From an uncultured Flavobacteriales bacterium (GTDB lineage Bacteria > Bacteroidota > Bacteroidia > Flavobacteriales_D > Parvicellaceae), in NCBI GenBank assembly GCA_943787725.1, contig CALSNM010000001.1, forward strand, positions 248,001 to 312,000: a stretch of DNA of 64,000 nucleotides, written 5' to 3'. Under the pieces are notes generated by a model. It searched no databases, was not told where the DNA came from, and was given only the letters and a program-made list of their open reading frames with translations. The translations under genes were made by a program, and so were the position numbers. Below, in pieces: positions 8,049 to 45,881 of this stretch. Each line of letters opens with the position of its first letter. The stretch's first letter is position 1.

Positions 8049-8375
8049 ATGAAATTATTTGCACTCATATTATCTTTTTCTATGTTTTTCTCAACCGTGG
8101 TGCCTTGCCATGCAGGAGAACATGACCATACAGAAAAATGTGAGCACCATGGAGAACATAAGCATGATGGCCCATCCGACGACAAAGAGAACAATGATGA
8201 ACACCCTTGTTCACCATTTTGCGGGTATCATTCTTCTGTTAACAGCCCCACATCAAGTCCAACTATTATTTTAGAAAATATTTTCTTTACTGAAAGTGTC
8301 GAAAAAGTGTTTATTTATACCCCGACTTATTTCTACCTCCTAGAATTCTCAATCTGGAACCCTCCTAAAGCATAG
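8049..8375 (+). CDS. Small secreted His/Cys-rich protein (DUF6660-like), first gene of metal-efflux cluster
   Basis: Signal peptide then CHAGEHDHTEKCEHHGEHKHDGP...HPCSPFCGYH; directly upstream of cusA-like gene. Confidence 0.65.
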   Translation: MKLFALILSFSMFFSTVVPCHAGEHDHTEKCEHHGEHKHDGPSDDKENNDEHPCSPFCGYHSSVNSPTSSPTIILENIFFTESVEKVFIYTPTYFYLLEFSIWNPPKA

Positions 8376-8452
8376 ATGCCCTATTTCGCATCTATTTTTC
8401 TCGCTGTAATTAGTACAGTTGGGTTTCCCGTTACATTGTAAAATTCTTTATC

Positions 8453-12758: not shown

Positions 12759-12778
12759 AACGTATTAATACAAATAAC

Positions 12779-14011
12779 ATGAAAAATTATATAATAATCA
12801 TTCTACTCGTATTCGGAATAAGCAGTTGCGAAAACAATTCTATTATTGAAGGACATGAGCACGATCATGAAGCGCATGGAGCAAAAGGTGCTGTTGAATT
12901 AACTGAAAAACAGCTGAGTTTAATCGACTATGAACTGGGGAATTTCAGACAAATGGATTTTGGTAAAAACATAAAATGTAGTGGAGAATTGGAACTTCCT
13001 CCGCAAAACAAAGCCAGTGTAAGCGCCTTGCTTGGTGGTCGCGTAAAAAGCATTGATGTGATTGAGGGAAATTTTGTAAAAAAGGGACAAACCCTTGCTG
13101 TACTGGAACATCCAGAGGTGATTGAATATCAAGAGCAATTTCTAGATGTTGCTAATAACATCTCCGTATTAAAAAGCGATTTTGAGCGGAAGCAAGCTTT
13201 ATTCAACGATAGCATCACTTCTCAGAAAGTATTCGAACAAGCTGAATCGGATTACCATAGTGCAGTTGCAAAACTAAATACCTTAAAAGCGAAATTATCG
13301 CTTATTGGAGTTTCTGCTGAGCAAGTCGAAAAAGGAAATATCACTTCGGGAATTACAATTAAATCTCCAATAGATGGATATGTTCGGTTGGTAGAAATAA
13401 ACATTGGAAAATTTGTTGAACCAGCATCTGAAATGTTTGAGATTGTAGACAATGAACATATACACATCGATTTACACGTTTATGAAAAGGATATTAACGC
13501 GATTAAAATTGGACAAAAAGTACTATTTTCTTTAGCTTCTAATGAAGGTGTGGATTACGAAGCGGTAGTATTTGCAATTGGAAAAGCATTTGAAAACGAC
13601 ACTAAATCAGTTCGTGTACATGCAGAAATAATTGCAAAAAAACATAACTTGCTGCCGGGAATGTATGTAAACGCCATAATAGTTACAGATCCACAAACAA
13701 GACGCGTATTGCCAGACAATTCCATTATCTCGGAAGGTGAAAAAGAATATATTTTTGTACAAACTATAAAAAAAGCAGATGAACATGAAGACCACGACCA
13801 TGGACATGAAGAGGAGAGTCATGAAGGACATCGGCATAATGCAGCGAAGGTTGGCTTTTTAAAAATTGGCGTTAGCACAGGTAACTCTGAGTTGGGATAT
13901 ACAGAAATTCTCACTACAGGCTCTATCCCTCTTAACGAAGGAATTGTTCTTAAAGGTGCTTTTTACTTGCATGCAGAAATGAAAAAAGGAGATGCAGGAC
14001 ATGTACATTAA
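12779..14011 (+). CDS. CusB-type periplasmic adaptor (membrane fusion protein), His-rich
   Basis: Lipoprotein signal, HEHDHEAHG, biotinyl-like GGRVKSIDVIEGNFVKKGQTLAVLEHPE, C-terminal HEDHDHGHEEESHEGHRH. Confidence 0.88.
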   Translation: MKNYIIIILLVFGISSCENNSIIEGHEHDHEAHGAKGAVELTEKQLSLIDYELGNFRQMDFGKNIKCSGELELPPQNKASVSALLGGRVKSIDVIEGNFVKKGQTLAVLEHPEVIEYQEQFLDVANNISVLKSDFERKQALFNDSITSQKVFEQAESDYHSAVAKLNTLKAKLSLIGVSAEQVEKGNITSGITIKSPIDGYVRLVEINIGKFVEPASEMFEIVDNEHIHIDLHVYEKDINAIKIGQKVLFSLASNEGVDYEAVVFAIGKAFENDTKSVRVHAEIIAKKHNLLPGMYVNAIIVTDPQTRRVLPDNSIISEGEKEYIFVQTIKKADEHEDHDHGHEEESHEGHRHNAAKVGFLKIGVSTGNSELGYTEILTTGSIPLNEGIVLKGAFYLHAEMKKGDAGHVH

Positions 14012-14027
14012 ATAAAAAAAATACTAA

Positions 14028-14499
14028 ATGAAAGCTGCTAAAGTTAGTGATATAAAAAAAGATTTGAAAAACAAGACACAGCCAGAATTATTGGATTTGT
14101 GTTTACACCTTGCTAAATTTAAAAAAGAGAATAAGGAGCTACTAACGTATTTATTGTACGAAGTAGATGACGAAGCTTCTTTTATACAAAGCATTAAAGA
14201 AGAGGTAGACGAACAGTTTTCTAGAAATCAATACGAGTAGCTACTACTTTATCAAAAAAAGTATGCGAAAGATTTTGCGAAATATTAAAAAGCATATTCG
14301 GTATTCTAAAAATAAAGAAACAGAAGTTGAGCTACTTATTTACTATTGTAGTAAGCTAAATTCATTTAGCCCTTCAATAACGAGAAACACCGCCCTGGTT
14401 AATCTTTATCAGAGACAAATCGTTTCCATCCGAAAAACGGTGTCTTCCTTACATGAAGATTTACAGTATGATTTTGGATTGCAGATAGAGGAATTATAA
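14028..14499 (+). CDS. Uncharacterised ~157-aa cytoplasmic protein (apparent frameshift)
   Basis: Two ORFs (14028-14240, 14263-14499) merge into one reading (...DEQFS-EINTSSYYFIKKSMRKILRNIKKHIRYS...) if one nt is removed near 14222. Confidence 0.6.
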
Positions 14500-16147: not shown

Positions 16148-17296
16148 ATGAAAGAGAAACACAGTAGAATAGTAACGCTTAAGCATTTATTCATTAATCA
16201 AGAAAAGAAAATTGGGCTAAAATTTTATCCCAATAAAATTATTCAAACCATTGTAAAAGGTCTTCCACAGGTAAAGTGGAGTAAAGAATTTGAAATAGCT
16301 TATATACCAAATACAACTCAAAATATTGATCTTATTTTTGATAATTTCAGACAAATAGCTTGGGTAAATTGCAGTCACTTCTACCCTAAGAAAATTAGCA
16401 CAATTAACATGAAACCTATAAGTGTTAACTATTATCGCAACCGGAAATTTGCTGCTGGATATAGAACATGCCCTGAAGAGTTCTATCAAAAATTAGAACT
16501 AAAAAACTACTCACTCAATACTGCTCGTATATATATCTCTATGTTCGAAATTTTTATAAATCACCATGGGAGAACTGAGCTGAACAGTATCGACGAAAAC
16601 AGCATAAGAAACTACTTGCTATCACTGGTTCGTGAAGAAAAATCTGAATCCTATATCAACCAAATGATAAATAGCATAAAATTTTATTATGAAGTGGTGA
16701 TGGAAATGCCAAATCGTTTTTATTCAATAGAACGACCTCAAAAAAAAAAACAATTACCTAAAGTAATTAGTAAAGAAGAGATAGGAGACCTGATACAAAA
16801 CACGAACAACATTAAACATAAGTGTATAATTAGTTTACTCTATTCAGCAGGACTTAGGAGAGGAGAACTACTAAATTTAAAATTGGAAGATATAGATAGT
16901 AAACGAATGGTAATAACCATAAATGGAGGGAAAGGAGGAAAGGATCGAATAACCTTATTGAGTGAATCTGTATTAAATGATTTAAGAATTTATTATAAAG
17001 AATGGAAACCAAATCTTTATTTGTTTGAAGGAAAAGCCGGAGTTAAATATTCGGGAGCCAGTGTTGTGAAAATTGTTCAAAATGCTGCAGTTAAAGCAAA
17101 TATTCGAAAAACAGTAACACCGCACATGTTACGCCATAGTTTTGCAACTCATTTATTAGAAGATGGAACAGACCTAAGATACATTCAAGTTCTACTTGGT
17201 CACAATAGCACCCAAACCACTGAAATTTATACCCAAGTAGCAACAACGAATATCAAAGCAATAAAAAGTCCTATAGATTCTCTATATTTACAGTAA
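16148..17296 (+). CDS. Tyrosine recombinase/integrase with extra N-terminal ~90-aa domain; candidate cassette integrase
   Basis: Catalytic pattern GLRRGE, GGKGGKDR, PHMLRHSFATHLL, LLGH, IYTQV (R-K-HxxR-H-Y). N-term KIGLKFYPNKIIQTIVKGLPQVKWSKEFEIAYIPNT is outside the catalytic fold. Confidence 0.93.
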   Translation: MKEKHSRIVTLKHLFINQEKKIGLKFYPNKIIQTIVKGLPQVKWSKEFEIAYIPNTTQNIDLIFDNFRQIAWVNCSHFYPKKISTINMKPISVNYYRNRKFAAGYRTCPEEFYQKLELKNYSLNTARIYISMFEIFINHHGRTELNSIDENSIRNYLLSLVREEKSESYINQMINSIKFYYEVVMEMPNRFYSIERPQKKKQLPKVISKEEIGDLIQNTNNIKHKCIISLLYSAGLRRGELLNLKLEDIDSKRMVITINGGKGGKDRITLLSESVLNDLRIYYKEWKPNLYLFEGKAGVKYSGASVVKIVQNAAVKANIRKTVTPHMLRHSFATHLLEDGTDLRYIQVLLGHNSTQTTEIYTQVATTNIKAIKSPIDSLYLQ

Positions 17297-17308
17297 CGAC
17301 ATATTATG

Positions 17309-17347
17309 GATAACACACATATGTGTGTTATCTGCTTGTTGGCACAC
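17309..17347 (+). repeat. Integrase-proximal candidate recombination site s0: 24-bp perfect palindrome plus GTTGGCACAC
   Basis: GATAACACACAT|ATGTGTGTTATC (17309-17332), then tgctt, then GTTGGCACAC (17338-17347), complementary to 20278-20287. Confidence 0.65.
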
Positions 17348-17357
17348 ATACAAAGCA

Positions 17358-17831
17358 ATGAAGAAAATAACAATAATAACAATTATTACTATCTTGTTTA
17401 GTCTAGAGGCTAAGGCACAAGAAATGAGAGGAGCAATAGGAATTCATCCAATAAATAATATGATAAGTTGGAGGTCAAATAACTACAAAAAACATTTTTG
17501 GGATTATAAATTTGAATATCAAGCAGGTTCAGTTAGTGGTGTACCTTTTGTAAATATCTCACCACAAGTAAACTTATGTTGGAGAAGACAAAATAATGAA
17601 TTTGTAAAATTTTATTGGGGTATTGGTTTAGGATTAGAAACATTTGTTCCTCGTCTGGCTATTCCTCTCGGTATAGAGTTTTTTCCTTTAGAAAAAGCAC
17701 CTCAATTAAGTATTGGAGCAGAAGCTTCTCCAATACTCATTTCAATTGGAACAGGTTTTTCAACAACAATAAAAGGAGATTTTGCTATAAGGTATTATTT
17801 CACAAAAAAAGACAAGAAGAAAAATGATTAA
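17358..17831 (+). CDS. Secreted uncharacterised protein (beta-rich; cassette 1 ORF a)
   Basis: MKKITIITIITILFSLEAKAQ signal peptide; ATG 20 nt after unit start. Confidence 0.65.
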   Translation: MKKITIITIITILFSLEAKAQEMRGAIGIHPINNMISWRSNNYKKHFWDYKFEYQAGSVSGVPFVNISPQVNLCWRRQNNEFVKFYWGIGLGLETFVPRLAIPLGIEFFPLEKAPQLSIGAEASPILISIGTGFSTTIKGDFAIRYYFTKKDKKKND

Positions 17832-18930
17832 ACCTCAATACATATTCTTTTCGCTTATAATTCTTATTTTTTCTTGTAAAAAGATAGATGACCTTACGCC
17901 TGAAACTCGTAGTTTCCATATAGGATTTCAACCTTGGGCACACGATTTAGGATATTCAGCTACAGTACACGCATACGATAATATTTCAATCTATGGAGAT
18001 ATTATATCAACTCAATTGGATGATGGCATTCCTTGGGAACAAGCTTACACGGGTGCTGATTTTCCAACAGATGTATTAGACAATATAAATGAGAGAAAAG
18101 CACTAACCCCACAAAATGCTAAAGTGTTTTTATCGTTAATGCCTTTGTCAGAGGGGAGAGATGATATTGCACAATACTGGGGGCAAGAAAATGAAACTAT
18201 AAAACAACAATGGTCTTCGAAAAAGTTTACAGATACAGCAGTAGTTACAGCATATCTTAATTATTGTAGAAGGATGATTGATTTTTTTCAACCAGATTAC
18301 TTTTGTTATGCAGTTGAAGCTAATGCTTCATTTTCAGAAACAGATATTACCTATCAAGAATTTTTGCCTTTTTGTGATACAATATATTCTACTTTAAAAA
18401 CAGAATACCCAAACTTACCAATTATGCTTTCTTTAGTTACTAATTTCTTAGGAGGAGATATAGTTTCTGGTACAACCGAACAGTTACTGCAATATTCAGA
18501 CTATGTAGCAATAAGCTCATACCCTTTTTTACTACCAAATGCTCCTTTTGGAAATGCTAATCCTCAAATGATTCCTAATAATTGGTATAATAGAATGGCT
18601 AATTTAGCACCAAACAAACCCGTTTGTATCACAGAAACAGCATATATAGCAGAAGATTTAAAAGTATCCGCTTATTTTATTGACTTAATAGGTAGAGAGG
18701 AATGGCAAGCAGAATATGTTCAACAATTATTTATAGAAATGAATAATTTGGATGCTGAATTTATTATTTGGTTTACCGCAAGAGATTACAATTATGCTGG
18801 AAAAAAATTAGAAGGAATAGTTGACCCCGCATTTAATATTTGGATGGATACAGGAATATTAGATGAAGCTGGTAGAGAAAGACCATCAGCAAAGATTTGG
18901 AAACAATGGAAATCAATACCCGTAAATTAA
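17824..18930 (+). CDS. Lipoprotein, possible TIM-barrel glycoside-hydrolase-like (cassette 1 ORF b)
   Basis: Lipobox ...LIFSCKK; YAVEANASFSE, VAISSYPF and CITETAY resemble the acid/base and nucleophile contexts of clan-A-like hydrolases. Family not assigned. Confidence 0.5.
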   Translation: MIKPQYIFFSLIILIFSCKKIDDLTPETRSFHIGFQPWAHDLGYSATVHAYDNISIYGDIISTQLDDGIPWEQAYTGADFPTDVLDNINERKALTPQNAKVFLSLMPLSEGRDDIAQYWGQENETIKQQWSSKKFTDTAVVTAYLNYCRRMIDFFQPDYFCYAVEANASFSETDITYQEFLPFCDTIYSTLKTEYPNLPIMLSLVTNFLGGDIVSGTTEQLLQYSDYVAISSYPFLLPNAPFGNANPQMIPNNWYNRMANLAPNKPVCITETAYIAEDLKVSAYFIDLIGREEWQAEYVQQLFIEMNNLDAEFIIWFTARDYNYAGKKLEGIVDPAFNIWMDTGILDEAGRERPSAKIWKQWKSIPVN

Positions 18931-18935
18931 TTATT

Positions 18936-20273
18936 ATGAAAAACACAACAATATTTTTACTATTAAGTCTACTAACATTCAACTCTTATGCTCAACTACC
19001 AAAAGGAGACAGGATTTTTGCTTGGCAAGTTGATATGGCACAAAATAACAATTACGACTCGGCTTATGCTTATGCACAAACAGGATGTATGGAATCAATT
19101 CATCTTTTCTTTACTTGGTCAAGTATAGAAGTTAGTAATGGCAATTTTGATGCCTCCTATATGGCTAATACATTGGATATTTTAGATATTTACCATCCTG
19201 CTTATGGAAATAAAGCTGAATTACAAATTGCAACAGTAAATACAGTAGCCAAAGAAACACCTTCAGACTTATTGGCTGTAGATTTTGATAATCCTATTAT
19301 GATAAATCGTTTCAAAGGGTTTCTTGATACATTGTTTACCCATATCCCTAATCTTGAACTTTCAGCCTTAAACATTGGAAATGAAGCAGATATTTATTGG
19401 GGGACAGACGCTACAAAATATTCTCAATATAAAATGTTTTTAGACTCTGTTATTCCTTACGCTAAACAGCTTTATTTTAACTTACACGGAACCGATTTAA
19501 AAGTAGGTACAACTTTTACTTTTGATGGTCTCACATCTGCTTCTACATCAGCTTTGTGTCAAACAGTAAATGATTCTTTAGATATTACAGCCCTTACTTA
19601 TTACCCTTTAAATCCAGACTTTACAATGGAGTCTCCATCTATTGTTAGTAGTGATTTTGCTAACTTAGTCAGTATATATTCAGACACTTTACAGCCAATA
19701 TATTTTGCTGAATGCGGATATGCTTCAAGCGATAGTTGCAATAGTTCAAATACCCAACAAGCACAGTTTTTCCAAAATGTATTTACTGCTTGGGACACGT
19801 ATTACGACAATATTAAATACATAACAATATTTAAAACAACAGACTGGTCACAGCAAGAAGTGAATGATTTTGCTATTTATTATGGTATTTCTGACAATAT
19901 TTTTTTAGAATATTTAAGAACATTAGGTGTTAGGACTTGGGACAATGATGGAATTAATAAACCTGCTTACGAAACGATACTTTGCGAATTGAATGCAAGA
20001 GGATGGTGCTCAGTAAACTGCATCACAACAGGAGTTAATGAACAAGTCAAGAATCAGTTTGTTTCAGTTTATCCAAACCCAACAAATGGACTAATAAATA
20101 TAGATACTGAAAAGACAATCACGCAAGTGAAAATTCACAATAATATTGGGAAATTAATCCTTGTTTCAACTAAGAGCAACTTTGAAATCAGTAACTTAAC
20201 AAATGGAATATATTATATAACCATTGAATTTGAAACTGGTGAAATAGAAAGAAAAAAACTGATAAAAGAGTAA
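18936..20273 (+). CDS. Secreted TIM-barrel hydrolase-like protein with T9SS sorting domain (cassette 1 ORF c)
   Basis: Signal peptide; LSALNIGNEADIYWG, ITALTYYPL, IYFAECGY; C-term VYPNPTNGLINID...GIYYITIEFETGEIERKKLIKE. Confidence 0.6.
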   Translation: MKNTTIFLLLSLLTFNSYAQLPKGDRIFAWQVDMAQNNNYDSAYAYAQTGCMESIHLFFTWSSIEVSNGNFDASYMANTLDILDIYHPAYGNKAELQIATVNTVAKETPSDLLAVDFDNPIMINRFKGFLDTLFTHIPNLELSALNIGNEADIYWGTDATKYSQYKMFLDSVIPYAKQLYFNLHGTDLKVGTTFTFDGLTSASTSALCQTVNDSLDITALTYYPLNPDFTMESPSIVSSDFANLVSIYSDTLQPIYFAECGYASSDSCNSSNTQQAQFFQNVFTAWDTYYDNIKYITIFKTTDWSQQEVNDFAIYYGISDNIFLEYLRTLGVRTWDNDGINKPAYETILCELNARGWCSVNCITTGVNEQVKNQFVSVYPNPTNGLINIDTEKTITQVKIHNNIGKLILVSTKSNFEISNLTNGIYYITIEFETGEIERKKLIKE

Positions 20274-20277
20274 GAAC

Positions 20278-20477
20278 GTGTGCCAACAATGGCTAAAAAA
20301 CATAGGGGTTTTGGTGGTGATTTGAAGTTCATAGCTTCGATTGAAAACCGCTAAACCAAAATTTTGATAATGAAAAAAGAAAAATAATTATAAAAATATT
20401 TGGCTTGGCTAAGTGCTAAATTGAAAGGGCAGCGTTTCAAACTCCCCTACGATTTCTTAGCCGGGTCGTTAGCAAAC
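20278..20477 (+). repeat. attC-like site s1 (about 200 bp)
   Basis: GTGTGCCAAC-aat-GGCTAAaaaacatAGGGG ... CTCCCCTacgatttcTTAGCC-gggtc-GTTAGCAAAC: nested imperfect palindrome between two ORFs. Confidence 0.75.
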
Positions 20478-20494
20478 ATTAAAAAATAAAACAA

Positions 20495-23400
20495 ATGAAA
20501 AAACTATTACTCATTTTATCCTTAGCGTGTCTTACGCTTGCAAATACTTCATTTGCGCAACAAGGCCTTGATCAAACAACTTTACCTGCTGGTCATAGAA
20601 TAGCAATGGGCCAAGATATTGAAGTATATGGCAATGAACAATATGTTGTTTTGGAGGACGGTTCTAGCGGGATTTATGGTGCACTATATAAAAACGATGG
20701 CACCACGTTAACCCAAATAACGTTGCCAGGGTCCTTAAGAATGGCTCAAGATTACGAAATGGAAGTTTATGATAGTGATTTGTTCGTTGTGCTAGAGGAT
20801 GGTTTTAGCGGGATTTATGGTGCTCTTCACAAATATGACGGAACTACTTTTACACAAATAACTTTACCTGGTTCTCTTAGAATGGCTGCTGGTTATGACA
20901 TAAGAGTTTATGGAAATGATTTGTACGTGGTGCTAGAGGATGGTTTTAGCGGGATTTATGGCGCATTATATAAATATGATGGTACAACATTCGCTCAAAT
21001 AACATTGCCTGGATCTTTAAGAATGGCGCAAGATTACGATATAGAAATCTACGCTAACAATCTAATGCTTGTTCTAGAAGATGGTTTTAGCGGCATTTAC
21101 GGTGCTCTTTATGAGTTCGATGGCACAACACTTGCTCAAAAAACCTTGCCTGGATCTTTAAGAATGGCTGCTGGCTATGATATGGAAGTATACAACAATG
21201 ATCTTCATATAGTCTTGGAAGATGGATCTAGTGGCATATATGGTGCCTTACATAAATATGATGGTACAACATTCGCTCAAATAACATTGCCTGGATCTTT
21301 AAGAATGGCGCAAGATTACGACATAGAAATCTACGCTAACAATCTAATGCTTGTTCTAGAAGATGGTTTTAGTGGGATTAATGGTGCTCTTTATGAGTTC
21401 AATGGTACAACTTTTACCCAAAAAACCTTTCCTGGAGCACTAAGAATGGCTGCTGATAACGATATGGGAGTCTATAATTGTCAACTTTATTTTGTTCTTG
21501 AAGATGGATCTAGTGGTATATATGGAGCTCTTTATAACTATAATGGTGCCAGGTTGAACCAAACAACTTTACCTGCTGGTCATAGAATGGCAATGGGCCA
21601 AGATATTGAAGTATATGGCAATGAACAATATGTTGTTTTGGAGGACGGTTCTAGCGGGATTTATGGTGCACTATATAAAAACGATGGCACCACGTTAACA
21701 CAAATAACGTTGCCAGGGTCCTTAAGAATGGCTCAAGATTACGAAATGGAAGTTTATGATAGTGATTTGTTTGTTGTGCTAGAGGACGGTTTTAGCGGGA
21801 TTTATGGTGCTCTTCACAAATATGACGGAACTACTTTTACACAAATAACTTTACCTGGTTCTCTTAGAATGGCTGCTGGTTATGACATAAGAGTTTATGG
21901 AAATGATTTGTACGTGGTGCTAGAGGATGGTTTTAGCGGGATTTATGGCGCATTATATAAATATGATGGTACAACATTCGCTCAAATAACATTGCCTGGA
22001 TCTTTAAGAATGGCGCAAGATTACGATATAGAAATCTACGCTAACAATCTAATGCTTGTTCTAGAAGATGGTTTTAGCGGCATTTACGGTGCTCTTTATG
22101 AGTTCGATGGCACAACACTTGCTCAAAAAACCTTGCCTGGATCTTTAAGAATGGCTGCTGGCTATGATATGGAAGTATACAACAATGATCTTCATATAGT
22201 CTTGGAAGATGGATCTAGTGGCATATATGGTGCCTTACATAAATATGATGGTACAACATTCGCTCAAATAACATTGCCTGGATCTTTAAGAATGGCGCAA
22301 GATTACGACATAGAAATCTACGCTAACAATCTAATGCTTGTTCTAGAAGATGGTTTTAGTGGGATTAATGGTGCTCTTTACGAGTTCGATGGCACAACTT
22401 TTACCCAAACAACCTTCCCTGGAGCACTAAGAATGGCTGATAATCACGATATGGGGGTCTATAATTGTCAACTTTATTTTGTTCTTGAAGATGGATCTAG
22501 CGGTATATATGGAGCTCTTTATAACTATAATGGTGCTTATACATGTGTGAACAATATCGAGACTGTATGTAACTCATACATATCACCTTCTGGCATTAAT
22601 TACACATCTTCAACCATGATTAATGAGGTTATATGTAGAGAAATTTACTCAATAGACTTAACAATTATCAATTCCGCTACAGCGGCCGACACAAGAACAG
22701 AATGTAATTCTTACACTTGGATTGATGGCAACAATTATACTTCAAGCAATAATACTGCGACATACAACATTGCTGGTGCTGCTGCTAATGGATGTGATTC
22801 TTTGGTAACACTTGATTTGACAATTGTTAATTCGGCTACAGGTACCGATACAAGAACTGAATGCAACTCTTACACATGGATTGATGGAAACAATTATACT
22901 TCTAGCAACAATTCTGCAATCTTCAATATTGTTGGAGGCGCTGCAAATGGCTGCGATTCTTTGGTAACCCTTGATTTGACTATTGCTAACTCTACTTCAG
23001 GAACAGATGTTATTACAGCATGCGGTTCGGATGGTTTTGAAATTCCAAATAATGGAATAGATGACGATTATGATGGAAATATTGATGAGTATTTAGGCTA
23101 CCAATGGATTGACAACAATTATTACACAGCATCTAATAACACTGCAACATGGATTGAAACAAATGCTGCGGGTTGTGACTCAACAGTCGCATTAGATTTG
23201 ACAATACTTCCTCCATTTGTTACCGAGGAAGATGTCATTACCGCATGTGACTCATACACATGGATTGATGGAACTACATACACATCATCTAGTTATGGTT
23301 TAGCTTACTTCAGTGATGTAAATGGATGCGATTCAGTTTTAGGGTTTTTGGATTTAACAATCAATAGTGTTTCAGATCTTACTGCTTCAACCTCAGGACT

Positions 23401-23839
23401 AGTTATTACCGCAAATAATATAGATGCCACATACCAATGGTTAGATTGTGACAACAGTAACGCAATTATCCCCGGTGAAACTGGGCAATCTTATACAGCA
23501 ATAACAAATGGCAATTATGCTGTTGAATTAACCGAAAATGGATGTGTGGATACCACAGCTTGCGTTTCTATTACATCTGTAGGTGTTCTTGAAAACACCT
23601 TTGGAGATGAGTTTGCGGTTTACCCTAACCCAACTAATGGAAATTTTTCTATCAATCTTGGAGCTATTTATGAATCTTTAATAGTTTCAATTACTGATAT
23701 TTCAGGTAAATTGATTGATTCAAAAACCATTACACAATCACAAGTTCTAAATCTCAACATAAAAGAACCTGCTGGGTTATATATGGTTTCTGTTCAAGCA
23801 GGAGATAAGAAAGCTAATATTAGGTTAATAAAAGAATAA
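20495..23839 (+). CDS. Giant secreted repeat protein (14 x 47-aa repeats + WIDGNNYTSSNN repeats) with T9SS sorting domain
   Basis: 1114 aa; signal peptide; repeats DGTTFAQITLPGSLRMAQDYDIEIYANNLMLVLEDGFSGIYGALYEY; C-term FAVYPNPTNGNFSINL...IRLIKE. Confidence 0.85.
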   Translation: MKKLLLILSLACLTLANTSFAQQGLDQTTLPAGHRIAMGQDIEVYGNEQYVVLEDGSSGIYGALYKNDGTTLTQITLPGSLRMAQDYEMEVYDSDLFVVLEDGFSGIYGALHKYDGTTFTQITLPGSLRMAAGYDIRVYGNDLYVVLEDGFSGIYGALYKYDGTTFAQITLPGSLRMAQDYDIEIYANNLMLVLEDGFSGIYGALYEFDGTTLAQKTLPGSLRMAAGYDMEVYNNDLHIVLEDGSSGIYGALHKYDGTTFAQITLPGSLRMAQDYDIEIYANNLMLVLEDGFSGINGALYEFNGTTFTQKTFPGALRMAADNDMGVYNCQLYFVLEDGSSGIYGALYNYNGARLNQTTLPAGHRMAMGQDIEVYGNEQYVVLEDGSSGIYGALYKNDGTTLTQITLPGSLRMAQDYEMEVYDSDLFVVLEDGFSGIYGALHKYDGTTFTQITLPGSLRMAAGYDIRVYGNDLYVVLEDGFSGIYGALYKYDGTTFAQITLPGSLRMAQDYDIEIYANNLMLVLEDGFSGIYGALYEFDGTTLAQKTLPGSLRMAAGYDMEVYNNDLHIVLEDGSSGIYGALHKYDGTTFAQITLPGSLRMAQDYDIEIYANNLMLVLEDGFSGINGALYEFDGTTFTQTTFPGALRMADNHDMGVYNCQLYFVLEDGSSGIYGALYNYNGAYTCVNNIETVCNSYISPSGINYTSSTMINEVICREIYSIDLTIINSATAADTRTECNSYTWIDGNNYTSSNNTATYNIAGAAANGCDSLVTLDLTIVNSATGTDTRTECNSYTWIDGNNYTSSNNSAIFNIVGGAANGCDSLVTLDLTIANSTSGTDVITACGSDGFEIPNNGIDDDYDGNIDEYLGYQWIDNNYYTASNNTATWIETNAAGCDSTVALDLTILPPFVTEEDVITACDSYTWIDGTTYTSSSYGLAYFSDVNGCDSVLGFLDLTINSVSDLTASTSGLVITANNIDATYQWLDCDNSNAIIPGETGQSYTAITNGNYAVELTENGCVDTTACVSITSVGVLENTFGDEFAVYPNPTNGNFSINLGAIYESLIVSITDISGKLIDSKTITQSQVLNLNIKEPAGLYMVSVQAGDKKANIRLIKE
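20565..22538 (+). repeat. Near-identical tandem DNA repeat, 2 x 987 bp, each of 7 x 141 bp
   Basis: 'tttacctgctggtcatagaat' at 20581 recurs at 21568 (offset 987 = 7 x 141); intervening sequence almost identical. Confidence 0.85.
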
Positions 23840-23860
23840 AACGATTTGCTAACAATGTAT
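22687..23860 (+). repeat. Copy A of a 1.17 kb direct duplication
   Basis: Near-identical to 24487-25661 (offset 1800, then 1801 after a 1-nt insertion). Confidence 0.9.
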
Positions 23861-23915
23861 ATGAAATCATAGCTCTCATTCGGACGTTACGCTTCATATA
23901 CTAAACGTTAGCAAC
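23845..23915 (+). repeat. attC-like site s2 (71 bp)
   Basis: TTTGCTAAC-aat-GTATATGAA ... TTCATATAC-taaac-GTTAGCAAC; 9-bp perfect inner stem (23857-23865/23893-23901). Confidence 0.85.
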
Positions 23916-23944
23916 ATTAAAGAAAAATCTCAATAATTAAAACA

Positions 23945-25640
23945 ATGAAAAAAATTTACATTTTAACATTAATCTTAATAAGTCTAAATTCATACTCTCA
24001 AAATTGCAATATTGGAAATGAAAATGCAACTGGCAGTTTTACAACTGGAAACTTTGGTGCTAATTACTTATTAGGTGTTAAGTACACACTTTCTCAATTG
24101 GGCACATTAAATTCTATTAACCTTATTGGAAATAACACAGGAGAGGGAGTTCAAATGGCCGTTTATGACGATAATGGAGGTACTCCTAATAATTTAATCG
24201 CTTCTAGCAGTCAATCTACTGTTGGAACTGGAATTACTACCCTACCTGTAACCCCTGTTTTACTTCCTCCTGGAGATTATTGGATTATGGCAGTTTATGA
24301 ATCTGGAGGTAATTCTTCAAATTATAACCCAAGTGCAACAGGAAATGTTGTTTATTACTCCTCTTTGCAGTATGGTAGTGCTATACCGACCAATGCTTCT
24401 GGATTTACAAGTTATAATGGACAAGATTTTTTATACTTTTTAAGTATAGATTGTGGAAACACACTTTGCCAACCTAACACAGGTACCGACACAAGAACAG
24501 AATGTAATTCTTACACTTGGATTGATGGCAACAATTATACTTCAAGCAATAATACTGCGACATACAACATTGCTGGTGCTGCTGCTAATGGATGTGATTC
24601 TTTGGTAACACTTGATTTGACAATTGTTAATTCGGCTACAGGTACCGATACAAGAACTGAATGCAACTCTTACACATGGATTGATGGAAACAATTATACT
24701 TCTAGCAACAATTCTGCAATCTTCAATATTGTTGGAGGCGCTGCAAATGGCTGCGATTCTTTGGTAACCCTTGATTTGACTATTGCTAACTCTACTTCAG
24801 GAACAGATGTTATTACAGCATGCGGTTCGGATGGTTTTGAAATTCCAAATAATGGAATAGATGACGATTATGATGGACATAGTTGATGAGTATTTGGGCT
24901 ACCAATGGATTGACAACAATTATTACACAGCATCTAATAACACTGCAACATGGATTGAAACAAATGCTGCGGGTTGTGACTCAACAGTCGCATTAGATTT
25001 GACAATACTTCCTCCATTTGTTACCGAGGAAGATGTCATTACCGCATGTGACTCATACACATGGATTGATGGAACTACATACACATCATCTAGTTATGGT
25101 TTAGCTTACTTCAGTGATGTAAATGGATGCGATTCAGTTTTAGGGTTTTTGGATTTAACAATCAATAGTGTTTCAGATCTTACTGCTTCAACCTCAGGAC
25201 TAGTTATTACCGCAAATAATATAGATGCCACATACCAATGGTTAGATTGTGACAACAGTAACGCAATTATCCCCGGTGAAACTGGGCAATCTTATACAGC
25301 AATAACAAATGGCAATTATGCTGTTGAATTAACCGAAAATGGATGTGTGGATACCACAGCTTGCGTTTCTATTACATCTGTAGGTGTTCTTGAAAACACC
25401 TTTGGAGATGAGTTTGCGGTTTACCCTAACCCAACTAATGGAAATTTTTCTATCAATCTTGGAGCTATTTATGAATCTTTAATAGTTTCAATTACTGATA
25501 TTTCAGGTAAATTGATTGATTCAAAAACCATTACACAATCACAAGTTCTAAATCTCAACATAAAAGAACCTGCTGGGTTATATATGGTTTCTGTTCAAGC
25601 AGGAGATAAGAAAGCTAATATTAGGTTAATAAAAGAATAA
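23945..25640 (+). CDS. Secreted WIDGNNYTSSNN-repeat protein with T9SS sorting domain (frameshift near 24875)
   Basis: ORFs 23945-24886 and 24861-25640 are the two parts. Compared with the paralogous copy upstream, the break is a 1-nt insertion (ggaaatattg -> ggacatagttg). Confidence 0.75.
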
Positions 25641-25661
25641 AACGATTTGCTAACAATGTAT
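24487..25661 (+). repeat. Copy B of the 1.17 kb direct duplication
   Basis: See copy A; identity ends inside the attC-like site after gctaacaatgtata. Confidence 0.9.
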
Positions 25662-25703
25662 AAGCGGCATTAAAACGGCCGCTTATACTTGACGTTGTAG
25701 AAC
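25646..25703 (+). repeat. attC-like site s3 (58 bp)
   Basis: TTTGCTAAC-aat-GTATAAGCGGC-attaaaacg-GCCGCTTATAC-ttgac-GTTGTAGAAC; 11-bp perfect inner stem. Confidence 0.88.
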
Positions 25704-25714
25704 ATAAATTATAT

Positions 25715-28700
25715 ATGCCGAAATTACATAAGCAAATACTTATCTTATCAATATTAGCGGCATTCCTCGTTATCAACATAGATGGCAATGCCCAGCAAAA
25801 ATACTATCATTTACTAGAAAAAAAGAAATACAATAAAGTAGAAAAAAAAGCGGGTAAAGACCTGTCTAAAGTATCTGTGACAGACACATATCACCAAACC
25901 ATGCTCAATCATATACATGCACTTTTATACAGCACCAGAAAATTTAAAAAATACAATACCGAAAAAGCATATGAATATATGCTTGTTACTCAAAAATTAT
26001 ATGCCAATATTTCTGATCAGAAAAAAATTGACAAACTTCAGAAAAAACAGATCAACAACAGCTCATTAGCCAATAATCTTCAAACCATATGCCAGAAGGC
26101 ACTCGATGATGCAATAGAAAAAAATACCATTAAAAATTTTCAATATTATTTAGACTACTATTTAAGAGCGGAGCTGGATAAAAGGCATCTAGCAACTAGT
26201 AAAAGAAATGAATTGGCATATCAAGCAGCTGTAAATACAAATACTGTAGCAGCCTTTCAAAATTTTATAGACACCTATCCAGATGCAATACAAATTCCAG
26301 AAGCTATAGTAAATAGAAACCACTTGGCATTTTTAAATGCTCAAAAAATCAATACAGTTGAATCTTTTCAAACTTTCATAGATACGCATCCAAATGCAAT
26401 AGATGCACCCAAAGCAATTATAGAAAGGGATCTTCTTGCGTTTAATAACGCAAAAGAAAAAAACACTTCAGTAGCCTATTATAATTTCATGAAAAAATAT
26501 CCAGAAAGTGAGCAATACAACAAAGCATTTTCTTTATACGAAGAAAGACAATTTTATGAAAACACAATCTATGATAATTGGGTAAGCTATAAAGATTTTT
26601 TATATGATTTCCCCAACAACTCATGGTTTTCAGCTGCAGAAGATAGTATTTTCCAAATTGGAAAAAGAACTGATGATTTAACAACTTTGGAATTTTGCAT
26701 CAATAACTTTTCTGATTCAAAAAGAGATACTGCCCTATTATACTATTATGAAGTTTATACACTTGATGGAGATTTAAATACCATACTCAGTTTTTATGAA
26801 AAGCACAATGATTATTTTTTAATGGAATTCAAAGAAAATGACATTGCCACTGCTGAGTTAGGAGATCAATTACAACTGCACTTACCCTATGATTATCACG
26901 ATCATGATATCTACGATAAATACATAAGAACTGCAGCACCTAAAGAAAAAGCATTTGTTGCATTACAAAGAATGATTTCTCCCTATATTAAAACTAAAAA
27001 ATGGGAAAAAGCAATTAAAATAGCAAATGAATATTTACCTCTATTTAATAAACGGAATAAAAAAATACTTAGCCTTATTTCCATTCTTGAAAAAGTAGAC
27101 GATAATACAATACAGATTAAATCTATTGGAAGTAGGATCAACTCAAGTTCTGGAAAAGAATATTCACCTATTATTTCTGCTGACAATAAATCACTTTATT
27201 TCTGTGGCAAACAAAGAAAAGACAATATAGGTGGCGAAGATATCTATGTTGCTAAAAACTCATCATCTGGATGGAGCAGAGCAAAATTAGTTAAAGAATT
27301 ATCTGATTCCAACACAAATAATGCTCCCTTGTGTGTAAGTGCAGATGGAAACGAAATTTTGCTTTTTCATAATGGCGATATTTTCTCAACCAATAAAACC
27401 ATTGAAGGTTGGGAAAACAACTTAAAACTTAATTCATTAATAAACACTAAATATTGGGAAGGTGATGCTACTATAAGCTCTGATGGAAATGAATTAATCT
27501 TTATTAGGTCTGCACAAAAGTTTGAAGCGAAATACGAATTAATTTTTCTAATCGACAACACAGGGTCAATGCAATCATGTATAAATGGGGTTAAAGAAAA
27601 TATTAGAAATTTTATTAGTAATCTTAAAGATGATGAATTAAAAATTGTAAAATGGAATGCTAAAATAATAGCATACAAAGATGCAATTAGTGATAGAGAT
27701 TCATATTACTCATTCCCATTTACTGATGATGAACATACTTTATATAATCAACTAGCAAGAATTTATGCTGAAGGAGGAGACGATGAGCCGGAATCAACTA
27801 TTGAAAGTTTATTTAGAGCAGCAAAAGAAACAAAATGGGATAAGGATGATGAAGTAATAAAAGTTATAGTATGTTTTACAGATGCAACAAATAAAAAAGA
27901 AATTTCAAGAAAAATTAGATCTAAATATGGAACAATAAATACAAAATATTTAAAAAAAGAACTTGATAAAAAAAATATCAACCTATTTCTTTTTTGTCAA
28001 AATGATCCAGATTATACTATAATATCTAACTTTAATCATGCCCATGTAACTCAATATCAAAATGCTATTAATCAATTACAAAATGCTGATTATTCATTAA
28101 TAATGAAATCATTATCAGATAAAATCTCTCTTTTGGCCAATAATGTACCTATTAATCATGGAGACAGACAGCTTAATGGAGATATCTATGTTTCCCATAG
28201 AGATTATTTGGGAAATTGGAGCAATCCTATCCCATTAGGTAATAAAATAAATACAAGGTATAGCGAAAGATCACCTTTTTTACATCCTGATATGAAAACA
28301 CTTTATTTCAGCTCAGATGGTCAAGGTGGCTTAGGTAAGCTGGATGTATTTAAGTCTACCCGATTAGCAGATTCATGCTGGGATTGCTGGAGTGATCCTA
28401 TAAATTTAGGTAAAGAGATCAATACAACAGAATCAGATTGGGGGTATAAAATTTCTACAGATGGAGTAAAAGGTTATTTCTCTAAAAAAACGTCTTCCAA
28501 TAACAATGAAGACATCTATTACTTAAATATCCCTGCCTATCTTCGGCCTGGATTTGTGGCTACTATTTCAGGAAAACTGTTAGACAAAGAGAATCTTCCA
28601 GTTTCTGCAAATATTCGCTGGGAAGACCTTGAGACTAAAAAAGTAATAGGGATATCCAAAAGTGACCCTTCTGATGGCAGTTATTTCATTGTTCTTCCTT

Positions 28701-29182
28701 TAGGTAAAATGTATGGTTATTTTGTTGAAGATTCCAGTTTCTTTCCTCTTTCAAATAACATTGACTTAAGGGATTCAATTAAGCAAATTACACTCGAAGA
28801 AAACATTGCAATGGTCACGTTTGAACAGATGATCAATGAAGGAGTTGCAGTACCAGTAAATAATCTGTTTTTTGAATCCAATAAATATGAATTACTTGAT
28901 TATTCTATACCTGAATTAAAAAGAGTGGCTAAGATCATCATCGAAAATAACCTGCATACAGAAATTAACGGACATACTGATAACATAGGAAATGATAAAT
29001 TGAATATGGAATTATCTATCAATCGTGCTAATTCTGTAAAAATTTTCTTAGTCGATCAAGGTGTTGATCCAGAAATACTAAAAATCATAGGACACGGAGA
29101 ATCCAAACCTGTTGCAAGTAATGATACAGATCAGGGAAGAAAGAAAAACAGACGAGTTGAGATCAATTTAATTAAAAAATAA
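25715..29182 (+). CDS. OmpA-family protein with TPR/helical N-terminus, PD40-like blades and an inserted vWA domain
   Basis: ISADNKSLYFCGKQRKDNIGGEDIYVA (PD40-like), YELIFLIDNTGSMQSCINGVK (vWA MIDAS-like), C-term NNLFFESNKYEL...INGHTDNIGNDKLN...NRRVEINLIKK (OmpA). Confidence 0.85.
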   Translation: MPKLHKQILILSILAAFLVINIDGNAQQKYYHLLEKKKYNKVEKKAGKDLSKVSVTDTYHQTMLNHIHALLYSTRKFKKYNTEKAYEYMLVTQKLYANISDQKKIDKLQKKQINNSSLANNLQTICQKALDDAIEKNTIKNFQYYLDYYLRAELDKRHLATSKRNELAYQAAVNTNTVAAFQNFIDTYPDAIQIPEAIVNRNHLAFLNAQKINTVESFQTFIDTHPNAIDAPKAIIERDLLAFNNAKEKNTSVAYYNFMKKYPESEQYNKAFSLYEERQFYENTIYDNWVSYKDFLYDFPNNSWFSAAEDSIFQIGKRTDDLTTLEFCINNFSDSKRDTALLYYYEVYTLDGDLNTILSFYEKHNDYFLMEFKENDIATAELGDQLQLHLPYDYHDHDIYDKYIRTAAPKEKAFVALQRMISPYIKTKKWEKAIKIANEYLPLFNKRNKKILSLISILEKVDDNTIQIKSIGSRINSSSGKEYSPIISADNKSLYFCGKQRKDNIGGEDIYVAKNSSSGWSRAKLVKELSDSNTNNAPLCVSADGNEILLFHNGDIFSTNKTIEGWENNLKLNSLINTKYWEGDATISSDGNELIFIRSAQKFEAKYELIFLIDNTGSMQSCINGVKENIRNFISNLKDDELKIVKWNAKIIAYKDAISDRDSYYSFPFTDDEHTLYNQLARIYAEGGDDEPESTIESLFRAAKETKWDKDDEVIKVIVCFTDATNKKEISRKIRSKYGTINTKYLKKELDKKNINLFLFCQNDPDYTIISNFNHAHVTQYQNAINQLQNADYSLIMKSLSDKISLLANNVPINHGDRQLNGDIYVSHRDYLGNWSNPIPLGNKINTRYSERSPFLHPDMKTLYFSSDGQGGLGKLDVFKSTRLADSCWDCWSDPINLGKEINTTESDWGYKISTDGVKGYFSKKTSSNNNEDIYYLNIPAYLRPGFVATISGKLLDKENLPVSANIRWEDLETKKVIGISKSDPSDGSYFIVLPLGKMYGYFVEDSSFFPLSNNIDLRDSIKQITLEENIAMVTFEQMINEGVAVPVNNLFFESNKYELLDYSIPELKRVAKIIIENNLHTEINGHTDNIGNDKLNMELSINRANSVKIFLVDQGVDPEILKIIGHGESKPVASNDTDQGRKKNRRVEINLIKK

Positions 29183-29193
29183 ATTAATTAGAA

Positions 29194-29250
29194 TTCTACA
29201 ACAAGGGCTAAAACAAATTGCATAACCTAGTTTAGCCAAATCGTTGAGGA
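29194..29250 (+). repeat. attC-like site s4 (57 bp)
   Basis: TTCTACAAC-aag-GGCTAAAacaaattgcataacctagTTTAGCC-aaatc-GTTGAGGA. Confidence 0.8.
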
Positions 29251-29267
29251 TTATTTAATCAATAAAA

Positions 29268-29843
29268 ATGGTAGAGCATAGATTAAAACTCACCGCGAAA
29301 AAACTAAAGAGATTAAAAGTTGATTTCGCGTTAAATAACAATAGTGTTCTTTTGCGAGGCACATCTTTATCTAAAGGATATATTTTCGTTACAATAATTC
29401 TACCAATAGTGGTTTTTGCTATTATTATAATTGGCTTGGGCATCATCATTCTCGCTCCAGAGTTTGAAAGAATTGTATTCCCAAAAATAATATTGTTTCT
29501 TCCATTGGTCTTGTTGTATTATGGTATAAAGAATATGATAAAGCTTAGGCAGAGCAAAAAATGTCAAGTTAATATTATGCCCGGAATGGCAATTTTAACA
29601 TATAAAAATAATGCTGATTTGGTTGTACCTATAGAGAAAATAAAAGAGTTGTCAATTAACATTGAAGAAAATGAGAGTGGTGTTATAGGTGGGATATATA
29701 TAACAAATAATGACCTTGAATCTTACTTATTGCTGAGTTTAATTGACAATAACGTAAAATATTTAAAAAATGATCTGGAATACATCAGAAGTACTTTTTT
29801 GATGATTTTAAATCTAGATAAAACTATTGCTAACAATGGGTAA
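29268..29843 (+). CDS. Uncharacterised protein with two TM segments
   Basis: 191 aa, hydrophobic hairpin GYIFVTIILPIVVFAIIIIGLGIIIL...; 25 nt after unit start. Confidence 0.6.
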   Translation: MVEHRLKLTAKKLKRLKVDFALNNNSVLLRGTSLSKGYIFVTIILPIVVFAIIIIGLGIIILAPEFERIVFPKIILFLPLVLLYYGIKNMIKLRQSKKCQVNIMPGMAILTYKNNADLVVPIEKIKELSINIEENESGVIGGIYITNNDLESYLLLSLIDNNVKYLKNDLEYIRSTFLMILNLDKTIANNG

Positions 29844-30062
29844 GCAACATGCTTCAAAGCAGAAAGGGAAAGAGCTGTCTGTTTACCCATAATATTTGCT
29901 AGCAGAGGTAATGAACTAAATTTACTTGCTGCATTCAAGTATCTGTATTTAATCGGATAAGCTTTTGTAAAAGAAATCAGGTATCAGAAGTACCGCAAAT
30001 ATTATTAACTTTGATATCATCGGATTGAGCATGCACGTTGCTTACACTAAACGTTATATGCA
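29827..30062 (+). repeat. Long attC-like site s5 (236 bp)
   Basis: TTGCTAAC-aatgg-GTAAGCAACATGC ... GCATGcacGTTGCTTAC-actaaac-GTTATATGC. Confidence 0.7.
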
Positions 30063-30112
30063 ATTACGAATAAAATTTTTATCTTTACTATATCAAAACT
30101 AAAATTTAACAC

Positions 30113-30487
30113 ATGAAAAAACTACTACTTTTTGGAGCTCTTGCTTTTGGTTTGAATGCTTTTGGGCAAGTTGAGGCAGGTGTCTATTCTAACCAAGCTG
30201 GTCAAATACTTAAGATACAGAATCTAAGAGAATGCTGTTTCGATTATGAAGTAGAATGGGGTGTCAACGACAAATATGGTTGTAAATTTAGCGCTATGGG
30301 CACTGCAACATTCTCATCTACATCATCGGCTTATGATGGTGAAAATCCAGATTATGACTATGATGTCTCATTTTCCATAGAAGGCAAAGTGATAAGCGTA
30401 AGAGGCGGGCTCGGATATGTTGGCATGGACTGTGCTAAATTCAGTGATTTCGAAAGTGAATACTACTCTAATTTCAGAATGAAATAA
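30113..30487 (+). CDS. Small secreted uncharacterised protein
   Basis: MKKLLLFGALAFGLNAFGQ signal peptide; Cys-containing 124 aa. Confidence 0.6.
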   Translation: MKKLLLFGALAFGLNAFGQVEAGVYSNQAGQILKIQNLRECCFDYEVEWGVNDKYGCKFSAMGTATFSSTSSAYDGENPDYDYDVSFSIEGKVISVRGGLGYVGMDCAKFSDFESEYYSNFRMK

Positions 30488-30502
30488 AAACACGAAAACT
30501 TT

Positions 30503-30533
30503 AAAAGCCCTTCAGAAATAATGGGCTTTTTTT
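30503..30533 (+). terminator. Rho-independent terminator
   Basis: AAAAGCCC-ttcagaaataat-GGGCTTTT + Ts. Confidence 0.7.
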
Positions 30534-30537
30534 GAAT

Positions 30538-30716
30538 CACATAACAGCACCTTTACTCCACCACAGTTTCATTTTAACGAATTCATTTCCCTACAAGATG
30601 CGTCGATAGTATAGCGGCAAAACGTCAAGCACAATTAAAAACTAGCTCAGAATATGAATGAACATCATTCCTTATTATATCATCTAAACGGAACTTGAGA
30701 AGGTTTTGTTGGAGAA
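30538..30716 (+). repeat. Degenerate attC-like site s6 (candidate)
   Basis: CACATAAC ... ACCTTtaCTC ... GAGAAGGT-ttt-GTTGGAGAA; weak complementarity. Confidence 0.35.
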
Positions 30717-30731
30717 TATTTTTATGATAAT

Positions 30732-30985
30732 ATGAATCGTGTCATTGAGCAACTATACAAAGAAGTTCTTATAAATGATGGTAATACCTCTTTCAAAAAT
30801 TATCAATATGCTATATACAGATACAATAAAAATGTTTATATTATTATGAAAGTCATTTTAGATGAACCTTTGGATGTATTAAATCAAAATCAATAAGTAT
30901 AGAAGCTATAAATAATTTACTCAATAAAGAAGGTCATCTGATTAACATAAAACAGATTCAATTATTTGAATATGAATACTACTAG
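30732..30985 (+). CDS. Small uncharacterised cassette ORF (~84 aa) hidden by a frameshift
   Basis: MNRVIEQLYKEVLINDGNTSFKNYQYAIYRYNKNVYIIMKVILDEPLDVLNQ, then in another frame KSISIEAINNLLNKEGHLINIKQIQLFEYEYY*. Confidence 0.5.
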
Positions 30986-31050
30986 CTTAAAAAGAAAAAT
31001 TCCTTGAGAAAGTTTTATGATATTGTGTAATTAACGCAAATGTTTAATGC

Positions 31051-31102
31051 TTTCCAACAACACCTAAACCAAATTGCATAACTTGGTTTAACGTTAGCAA
31101 AC
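31051..31102 (+). repeat. attC-like site s7 (52 bp)
   Basis: TTTCCAAC-aacacc-TAAACCAA-attgcataac-TTGGTTTA-ac-GTTAGCAAAC. Confidence 0.82.
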
Positions 31103-31121
31103 ATTAGAAACTTAATACCTA

Positions 31122-31598
31122 ATGAAAAAAAGCATTAAAACCATTTTACTAATCACCACTACAATCTTGTTATCGTCAACTAACATTGTTTACAGTCAAA
31201 AAGAAAGCGTAAAAGATGTAGGGTTTTATAAAAATGCAATACATGGAAATGTCGGTATCGGCGGATTGTATTTAACGGCAAATGGATATTATGAGAGAAT
31301 GATAACCCAGAGCAGCAAAATCTTATCTTTTGTTAAGGTTGGTATTGGAGGATATTCGACATGGGGTGATGAAGGAAATTACATTCTTGGTCAATTTGGG
31401 ATTCTATCAGGCGCTAATAAACATCATTTGGAACTAGGTGCTGGACCTAGGTATGTAACAAACGGAAACATACAGGGATATGGTCCTTTTACTGCGACCA
31501 TAGGTTGGAGGATTCAAAAACCTGGAGGAAATTTCATATTTAGGCTGGGAGCGTCATGGCCTGAAGCAATATATGTTGGGTTAGGGTTTTCTTTTTAA
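31122..31598 (+). CDS. Secreted uncharacterised protein (possible small beta-barrel)
   Basis: Signal peptide, Gly/aromatic-rich, ends in aromatic (YVGLGFSF*). Confidence 0.6.
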   Translation: MKKSIKTILLITTTILLSSTNIVYSQKESVKDVGFYKNAIHGNVGIGGLYLTANGYYERMITQSSKILSFVKVGIGGYSTWGDEGNYILGQFGILSGANKHHLELGAGPRYVTNGNIQGYGPFTATIGWRIQKPGGNFIFRLGASWPEAIYVGLGFSF

Positions 31599-31658
31599 AC
31601 CCGGCTAATTCCATTTATTGATTCTAAAATAAGTCAAATGAAAATAAATTAGAAATAT

Positions 31659-31728
31659 CGCTAACAATGCCTAAGTCACATTGCTTTGCTATCTTAAATC
31701 ACGTATTTTAGCTGAAACGTTATAGCCA
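31659..31728 (+). repeat. attC-like site s8 (70 bp, weaker)
   Basis: CGCTAAC-aatgc-CTAAg ... tTTAG-ctgaaac-GTTATAGCC. Confidence 0.55.
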
Positions 31729-35142: not shown

Positions 35143-35199
35143 CCTACAAAACTTTCTAAACCAAAATGCATAACTTGGTTTATTCAATCGTTGTAATTC
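35143..35199 (+). repeat. attC-like site s9
   Basis: CTACAAAAC-tttc-TAAACCAA-aatgcataac-TTGGTTTA-ttcaatc-GTTGTAATTC. Confidence 0.65.
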
Positions 35200-37460: not shown

Positions 37461-37574
37461 AACTGCACGCCCCCATTTTGAATATTCCAGCCAACAATAC
37501 ATAAAGGTAACAGCAGTTTGGAATAATATCAAACCTTCTTTTAATTTATTTGGGTATATTGTTAGTGAAAAGAA

Positions 37575-38519: not shown

Positions 38520-38659
38520 CAACTTCAATTACGATTGGATCTGTATATTTTCTAATAAATAGTTTTCTTTCTTTGGAATAACATCTTTTAACAATGTTTC
38601 GATTCTTTTGAAATGTAACTGCTGAATATGTATATTTAGGATTATCAAAAAAGTAAATT

Positions 38660-45740: not shown

Positions 45741-45807
45741 ATTGAAGAAAGATCCCTACCTTTCCTTGGAAAACATAAACTAAGGGAGTAAGATACCCCC
45801 TTAGTTG

Positions 45808-45881
45808 TGACCCAGACAGGATTCAAACCTGTAACCGCCAGAGCCGAAATCTGATGCGCTATTCAGTTGCGCCACTGGGCC
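45808..45881 (-). tRNA. tRNA-Arg (anticodon TCG)
   Basis: Acceptor GGCCCAG/CTGGGTC, anticodon stem-loop TCAGA-TTTCGGC-TCTGG, TPsiC arm ACAGGTTTGAATCCTGT. Confidence 0.88.

Follow-up and report, generated by a model that had tools for sequence, protein, structure and literature searches.

A probable integron of Xer-like type in an uncultured member of the Flavobacteriales: integrase, attI, cassette array and relatives in Bacteroidota

Described systems and the integrase of the window

The closest described system is the classical integron, from which the concepts of attI, attC and CALIN are taken, and in which an integrase and its attI stand beside same-strand cassettes with attC hairpins and a G^TT crossover. 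The integrases of Treponema integrons, which are not part of the tree presented below, are likewise IntI proteins with the IntI insertion. As for the rAID-1 arrays of gut Bacteroidales, Ross and colleagues may reportedly have remarked on integron-like features when they described them in 2019. PMC12247911 characterises these arrays (Ross et al. 2019) by a recombinase, by genes in one orientation and by motifs between the genes, and leaves open how they are built. Integron surveys define the integrase by its IntI domain, and in the published survey complete integrons are nearly absent from Bacteroidetes (PMC9024848). One survey describes the insertion as 'not fully conserved' among integron-like recombinases (PMC8138268). 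The IntI domain has been described as needed for activity (Messier and Roy 2001, in the form in which PMC9668308 cites them). Finally, in the reverse-orientation integrons of Treponema the integrase is transcribed toward attI, in the same direction as the cassettes (PMC3607928), and on Acinetobacter plasmids a recombinase gene, xerD/TnpF, lies beside tet(X3), whose mobility is known there to proceed by ISCR2 and IS26 (PMC7758954).

Here we analyse a window of 64,000 nucleotides, by which we mean the whole stretch of DNA under study, from an uncultured Flavobacteriales bacterium (contig CALSNM010000001.1, positions 248,001 to 312,000). Its tyrosine recombinase is, in our judgment and with a probability of roughly 0.87, the integrase of a chromosomal integron type that is widespread in Bacteroidota, a 'Xer-like or rAID-type integron'. 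Namely, much of what defines an integron in functional terms is found at this locus: a site-specific tyrosine recombinase, an adjacent attI, and attC hairpins with a GTT crossover (Table 1).

In the recombinase, Pfam places Phage_integrase at residues 206-366, preceded by a SAM-like N-terminal domain from residue 110. All catalytic residues (R237, K262, H326, R329, H352 and Y361) are present and do not vary across the family. An earlier, sequence-only reading of this DNA had seen no obvious IntI signature in the protein, and the IntI-specific profile bears this out: the score against TIGR02249 is 193.8, below the cut-off of 265, with an alignment that splits at residue 285. What is more, the distance from KGxxDR to HxLRH is 58 aa in the window integrase and in nearly all family members, as compared with 66 in most XerC and XerD proteins and 100 in IntI1 and IntI2, as in most of the other IntI-type proteins. 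Because this spacing was measured (58 aa vs 100), the insertion before HxLRH can be called truly absent and not merely diverged and, falling outside the IntI clade as well, the protein does not belong to the IntI family in the sense of TIGR02249.

Could it then be a housekeeping Xer protein that resolves chromosome dimers, or else a resolvase of plasmid type, and stand beside repeats by chance? Such a role would agree with the score against NF040815, the mixed 'XerA / integron integrase' model of NCBI, which the integrase exceeds (227.6 vs 220), and with its best matches among solved structures, which are archaeal XerA proteins. The XerC and XerD models are not passed (195 vs 329.6 and 191 vs 335 bits, respectively). 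Still, the genome carries a separate recombinase of XerC/D type that lies in the Xer clade, while the window integrase lies elsewhere; the attI position, the attC covariation and the closing tags described below are array-specific; and a different family member occupies the same site in genomes of the same genus. We therefore regard the housekeeping explanation as very improbable.

The sequence-only reading had also pointed to an extra N-terminal domain, with some 90 residues ahead of the SAM-like domain. The domain is present and conserved in the family, and the stretch in question is closer to 105 residues. Structure prediction yields a small, confident unit of strand-strand-helix-strand-strand-helix-strand order, with pLDDT about 93 over residues 11-70. 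No Pfam family was matched in a search with this domain, and comparison with the PDB gave no confident fold match, such that the YciH, XPB and HARP-like matches (best E 0.06) are to be taken as leads only. The domain may serve in DNA binding.

Phage and ICE integrases are recognised by an arm-binding domain together with an element context; here the N-terminal domain has no Pfam match, and close relatives have no viral context. The proposal that we are dealing with an integrase of a phage, an ICE or an IS91-like transposon, with repeats that are unrelated to it, draws on the moderate similarity of IS91-associated tyrosine recombinases (39.6% for that of Bradyrhizobium) and on the plasmid-borne location of some family relatives. 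However, when the context of close relatives was checked, neither viral contigs nor phage records yielded a tier-1 family member, the IS91-associated recombinases fall outside the clade, and no transposase gene was recognised in the window array, all of which makes this proposal hardly credible.

All 16 ORFs of at least 110 aa within 17297-38600 lie on the + strand, and therefore transcription of the integrase gene runs toward the cassettes, as the sequence-only reading had it. That reading called the orientation unlike classical intI; the difference is real, but the same-direction arrangement is already known from Treponema (PMC3607928).

The attI site and the cassette array

Immediately downstream of the integrase stop codon, both the window and its relatives carry a palindrome with GTT after it. 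Under a strict rule (palindrome of at least 8/9, then GTT, no more than 120 nt from the stop) this attI is present in 28 of 38 close relatives and in 2.1% of control windows; the other 10 relatives are below the threshold, at least one of them because its contig stops at the site. The arms vary while their pairing is kept, with 35 distinct left arms among 39 loci, although the arms in this comparison were picked for pairing and the fair test is the strict-rule count of 28/38. Some more distant homologs, such as L114 and L053, have no clear attI or array. Past the stop codon, the Bacteroidota -7 motif TAnnTTTG, which could point to a Pc promoter for the cassettes, occurs in 16/38 distant members (4.5 expected) and in 7/25 close relatives (3.7 expected), and none was seen in the gap between integrase and cassettes of the window.

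Table 1. Coordinates of the integrase gene, the predicted attI and the cassettes with their attC sites in the window
Feature	Position	Strand	Remarks
Integrase gene	16148..17296	+	382 aa tyrosine recombinase, XerA/XerD-like catalytic core without IntI insertion
N-terminal extra domain	16148..16390	+	~80 residues (about residues 8-75), conserved in family
attI	17300..17340	+	CATATTATGGAT-AACACACAT/ATGTGTGTT-ATCTGCTT-G^TT; begins 4 nt past integrase stop codon; predicted crossover after G17338
Cassette 1	17339..20468	+	three ORFs, 17325/17361-20273
attC1	20285..20470	+	long type, about 186 nt
Cassette 2	20469..23907	+	1114-aa repeat protein with T9SS sorting tail
attC2	23851..23910	+	
Cassette 3	23908..25694	+	3' part in common with cassette 2
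attC3	25652..25697	+	short; E 1e-12, but in training set of attC model
Cassette 4	25695..29243	+	1155-aa OmpA/PD40/VWA protein
attC4	29200..29246	+	short; in training set of attC model
Cassette 5	29244..30053	+	ORF 29268-29843; own closing tag mismatched
attC5	29832..30056	+	long type, weaker evidence
Cassette 6	30054..31093	+	possibly 6 and 7, degenerate attC between
attC7	31056..31096	+	short; in training set of attC model
Cassette 8	31094..31719	+	copies at other loci of G001, G002
attC8	31663..31722	+	outside training set, E 2e-5
Last attC recognised	35150..35193	+	outside training set, E 0.004

The cassettes run from 17339 to at least 35190 and end in attC hairpins, and the downstream flank is conserved from about 37203. 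Among nine array proteins, Pfam finds OmpA, a T9SS tail, GH25, Pirin and others and no immunity families, and a scan of the array with Rfam returned only a tRNA. Two of the cassettes show internal or shared repetition. Namely, in the gene of cassette 2 a 141-bp unit is repeated in tandem about 13 times (20572-22588), with two halves that are 98-99% alike, as expected of a recent internal duplication; cassettes 2 and 3 are 99-100% identical at their 3' ends over about 1.2 kb (22679-23381 and 24479-25182); and an apparent frameshift divides cassette 3 into the overlapping ORFs 23945-24886 and 24861-25640.

The first approximately 10 bases of many cassettes are the reverse complement of the 3' end of the same cassette. 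In cassette 1, for instance, the 5' sequence GTTGGCACAC, at attI, has its exact reverse complement 2.9 kb downstream, in GTGTGCCAAC at 20278-20287, and GTGTGCCAAC is followed by a hairpin and then by the next GTT. Judged from the sequences, such self-complementary ends look like what a circle would leave behind when opened at G^TT. A 10-nt closure is seen at 32 of the 62 loci with enough sequence, where about 7 would be expected by chance. In the 29 closing cases that were taken further, the match at positions 1-10 was the selection rule, i.e. at least 10 nt by construction; past it, position 11 is mismatched in all 29 (A against G in 27), and the match extends to positions 12 and 13 in 27. 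When tags are permuted to other loci, 8 of 812 trials match. Counting consecutive closing cassettes from attI, one finds seven in locus L051 and six in L049, values equalled by 1 and 3 of 5000 permutations, respectively. Applied to the window by itself, the test has little force (167/5000 permutations are as good), since good closure is confined to the first cassettes and has been lost in cassettes 5 and 6; the window array is therefore partly decayed.

Aligned with one another, 15 short attC sites reach 93.3% pairing. Of the 11 inner-stem pairs, 8 show double changes, the stem has no conserved bulged base, and 0 of 500 shuffles attain the covariation score. The hairpin loops have an invariant AT...AAC despite the varying stem sequence. 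A model built from these 15 sites recovers two window sites on which it was not trained (attC8 and the last attC), detects pairs of sites in other parts of the genome (C1:385191/388197, C5, C6 and C10), and has matches in 27 of the 40 relatives, a group that had itself supplied some of the training sites. Mismatches in the stems are one-sided: 100 are of the bottom-strand G.T wobble type, as against 20 of the top-strand type. In the circular form the bottom strand is, by thermodynamic prediction, the more stable one in 45 of 47 attC sites, not all of which are independent, and on these models the wobble bias would set the choice of strand.

How would such a system work? In the mechanism that we propose, a circular cassette bears one attC, the halves of which are complementary over 10-14 bases and an inner stem. 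The bottom strand is predicted to fold more readily, as A.C mismatches of the top strand become T.G wobbles, and the integrase would join the folded cassette to the palindromic attI just 3' of its own gene, with exchange at G^TT; excision would re-create the circle. Catalysis by the window integrase, a single-stranded substrate and strand choice would all belong to this scheme, in which the cassettes may be transcribed by read-through from the integrase side.

Beyond the shared features named at the outset, this type resembles classical integrons in the stem-spacer-stem form of attC, in the predicted bottom-strand bias and in the occurrence of attC arrays away from the integrase. It differs from them in that its integrase has no IntI insertion, has an extra N-terminal domain in close relatives and forms a separate clade, in that attI is palindromic and 3' of the integrase gene, in that closing relies on cassette-specific tags of about 10-14 nt whereas classical sites have a short shared R box, and in that the predicted strand bias comes from G.T wobbles and not from bulged bases.

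Descent and distribution of the family

The comparison covered eighty loci of public genomes, nearly all from Bacteroidota. In a sample of the phylum, with membership set at scores above about 215 bits (a hand-set threshold and a hand count), the family integrase is found in 42 of 74 same-class genomes (about 57%) and in about 54 of 226 genomes of other classes. IntI above the cut-off occurs in 1 of 37 same-class genomes and in 47 of 113 other-class genomes. Such matches to the IntI model, at L254-L257 and in genomes of other classes of the phylum, are far commoner than the published complete-genome survey suggests for Bacteroidetes.

In the phylogeny against XerC/D and IntI, the integrase sits in a clade of its own, apart from both: IntI proteins are monophyletic (100/100), the window family is a separate clade (94/92), and the Xer proteins and IS91-linked recombinases are outside it. 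The sequence-only reading had suggested an independently evolved cassette integrase. That it is a cassette integrase is upheld by attI, attC, the closing tags, the single cassettes shared between genomes and the family as a whole. Independent evolution does not follow, since a tree that joins IntI and the window family has a slightly better likelihood (p-AU 0.53). Because this joint tree is not rejected, common descent followed by gain of the insertion, or loss of the insertion, is as possible as a separate origin.

The same result lends something to the view that this is a classical integron integrase after loss of the insertion, with an array that is an ordinary decayed integron, as do the shared attC architecture and GTT crossover and the presence of IntI4 (2a3v) among the best fold matches. 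That said, the insertion is absent in nearly all family members, even beside long, intact-looking arrays, attI is a palindrome 3' of the gene, the 15 short attC sites have no conserved bulged base, and the IntI set is monophyletic to the exclusion of the window family; we thus consider a classical integrase after such a loss unlikely. The Xer-like integron remains our preferred reading.

Two described systems appear to connect with it. The recombinases of L220 and L221, which we read from their gene content as gut rAID loci, fall within the tree of the window family, and in the array of L220 the closing test succeeds at 93 of 110 positions, the best of 2000 permutations reaching 83. In other words, rAID-1 and the window have in common a homologous recombinase, a co-oriented array, and intergenic motifs that conform to attC with closing tags. 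They differ in that the crossover context of rAID-1 is mostly ATT and in that its cargo consists of immunity genes, whereas the window carries secreted or outer-membrane proteins and other genes, and orphan immunity genes, the typical rAID-1 cargo, were not seen among the nine proteins of its array that were compared with Pfam. The second system is xerD/TnpF beside tet(X3) (PMC7758954), which is 53% identical to the window integrase and inside its family, with an attI palindrome of the same form between its stop codon and tet(X3). Unlike the window cassettes, tet(X3) has no intact attC or closing tag after it. We considered tet(X3) as a complete, intact cassette and dropped the idea, its 3' side being without a matching R'' and GTT, and claim only its position.

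As far as the open-access literature goes, what is new here is an integron type that spans the phylum and has an insertion-free integrase and its own form of attI, the cassette-specific closing tags and the predicted bottom-strand G.T wobble bias, as well as the union of rAID and the tet(X3) xerD with the Xer-like integron. Standard integron searches have missed this type because its integrase lacks the defining IntI part. If our reading is true, a large part of the movement of gene cassettes in Bacteroidota of the sea and the gut has so far escaped notice, rAID arrays gain a mechanism of construction, and the role of the IntI domain becomes testable against a natural relative without it. More broadly, we would give even odds to a history in which single-strand capture arose twice, or before the IntI insertion, and in which a Xer-like lineage of Bacteroidota without the IntI domain, choosing strands by wobbles, built the rAID arrays and perhaps first mobilised tet(X).

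Some plasmid-borne relatives have neighbours of interest. On a Flagellimonas plasmid (L056, 11032-12807) erm(F) is directly upstream of a distant family recombinase, with a Tn3-family transposase gene lying another 1.2 kb or so upstream, and in the array of a Chryseobacterium plasmid (L057, 13131-21951) Crp/Fnr-type regulator genes are repeated behind a family integrase.

Apparent movement of single cassettes between loci

Comparison of genomes indicates that cassettes have moved as single units, with junctions at or beside G^TT. Cassette 2 has a 97% copy at another place in the same-genus genome G002, with different DNA past its attC, on a contig that stops at the 5' boundary of the cassette; its attC end recurs at a second locus of G002, where similarity halts right after CGTTA and another cassette follows. 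Cassette 8 has an 89% copy in G002, joined exactly at CGTT to a different upstream attC, and an 87% copy in G001, where the match starts 15-20 nt inside the boundary. Transfer of cassette 2 between species was entertained on account of its 97% identity and dropped, given that conserved genes are 95% identical in G002. A better case for such transfer, judged by sequence identities, is cassette 1, which is 82% identical in a genome of another genus (G030), as against 74-76% for conserved genes, the match covering the cassette from 18 nt past its predicted 5' boundary to 6 nt before the 3' crossover.

Three genomes of the same genus (G001, G002 and G003) have this upstream flank too, and next to it another member of the integrase family, 42-43% identical to that of the window. 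In 22 of 72 public loci the contig stops no more than 500 bp away on the array side, and in none of them does it do so on the other side (p 5e-7). Variable or repetitive arrays would give this pattern, and repeats may lie behind it no less than variation.

The flanks of the array have features of their own. The upstream flank with efflux-pump genes (8219-14496) shares 99.7% identity with G002 across 6.3 kb, as against 95% for the conserved genes at 47171-51127, and a recent exchange of this flank with G002 is possible, going by these identities. Downstream, the 4.1-kb region 37203-41293 has two copies in G002 (C18 and C9) with 98-99% identity, and several places in same-genus genomes match the sequence around 45807-46498, where a tRNA gene stands at 45808-45881 on the - strand.
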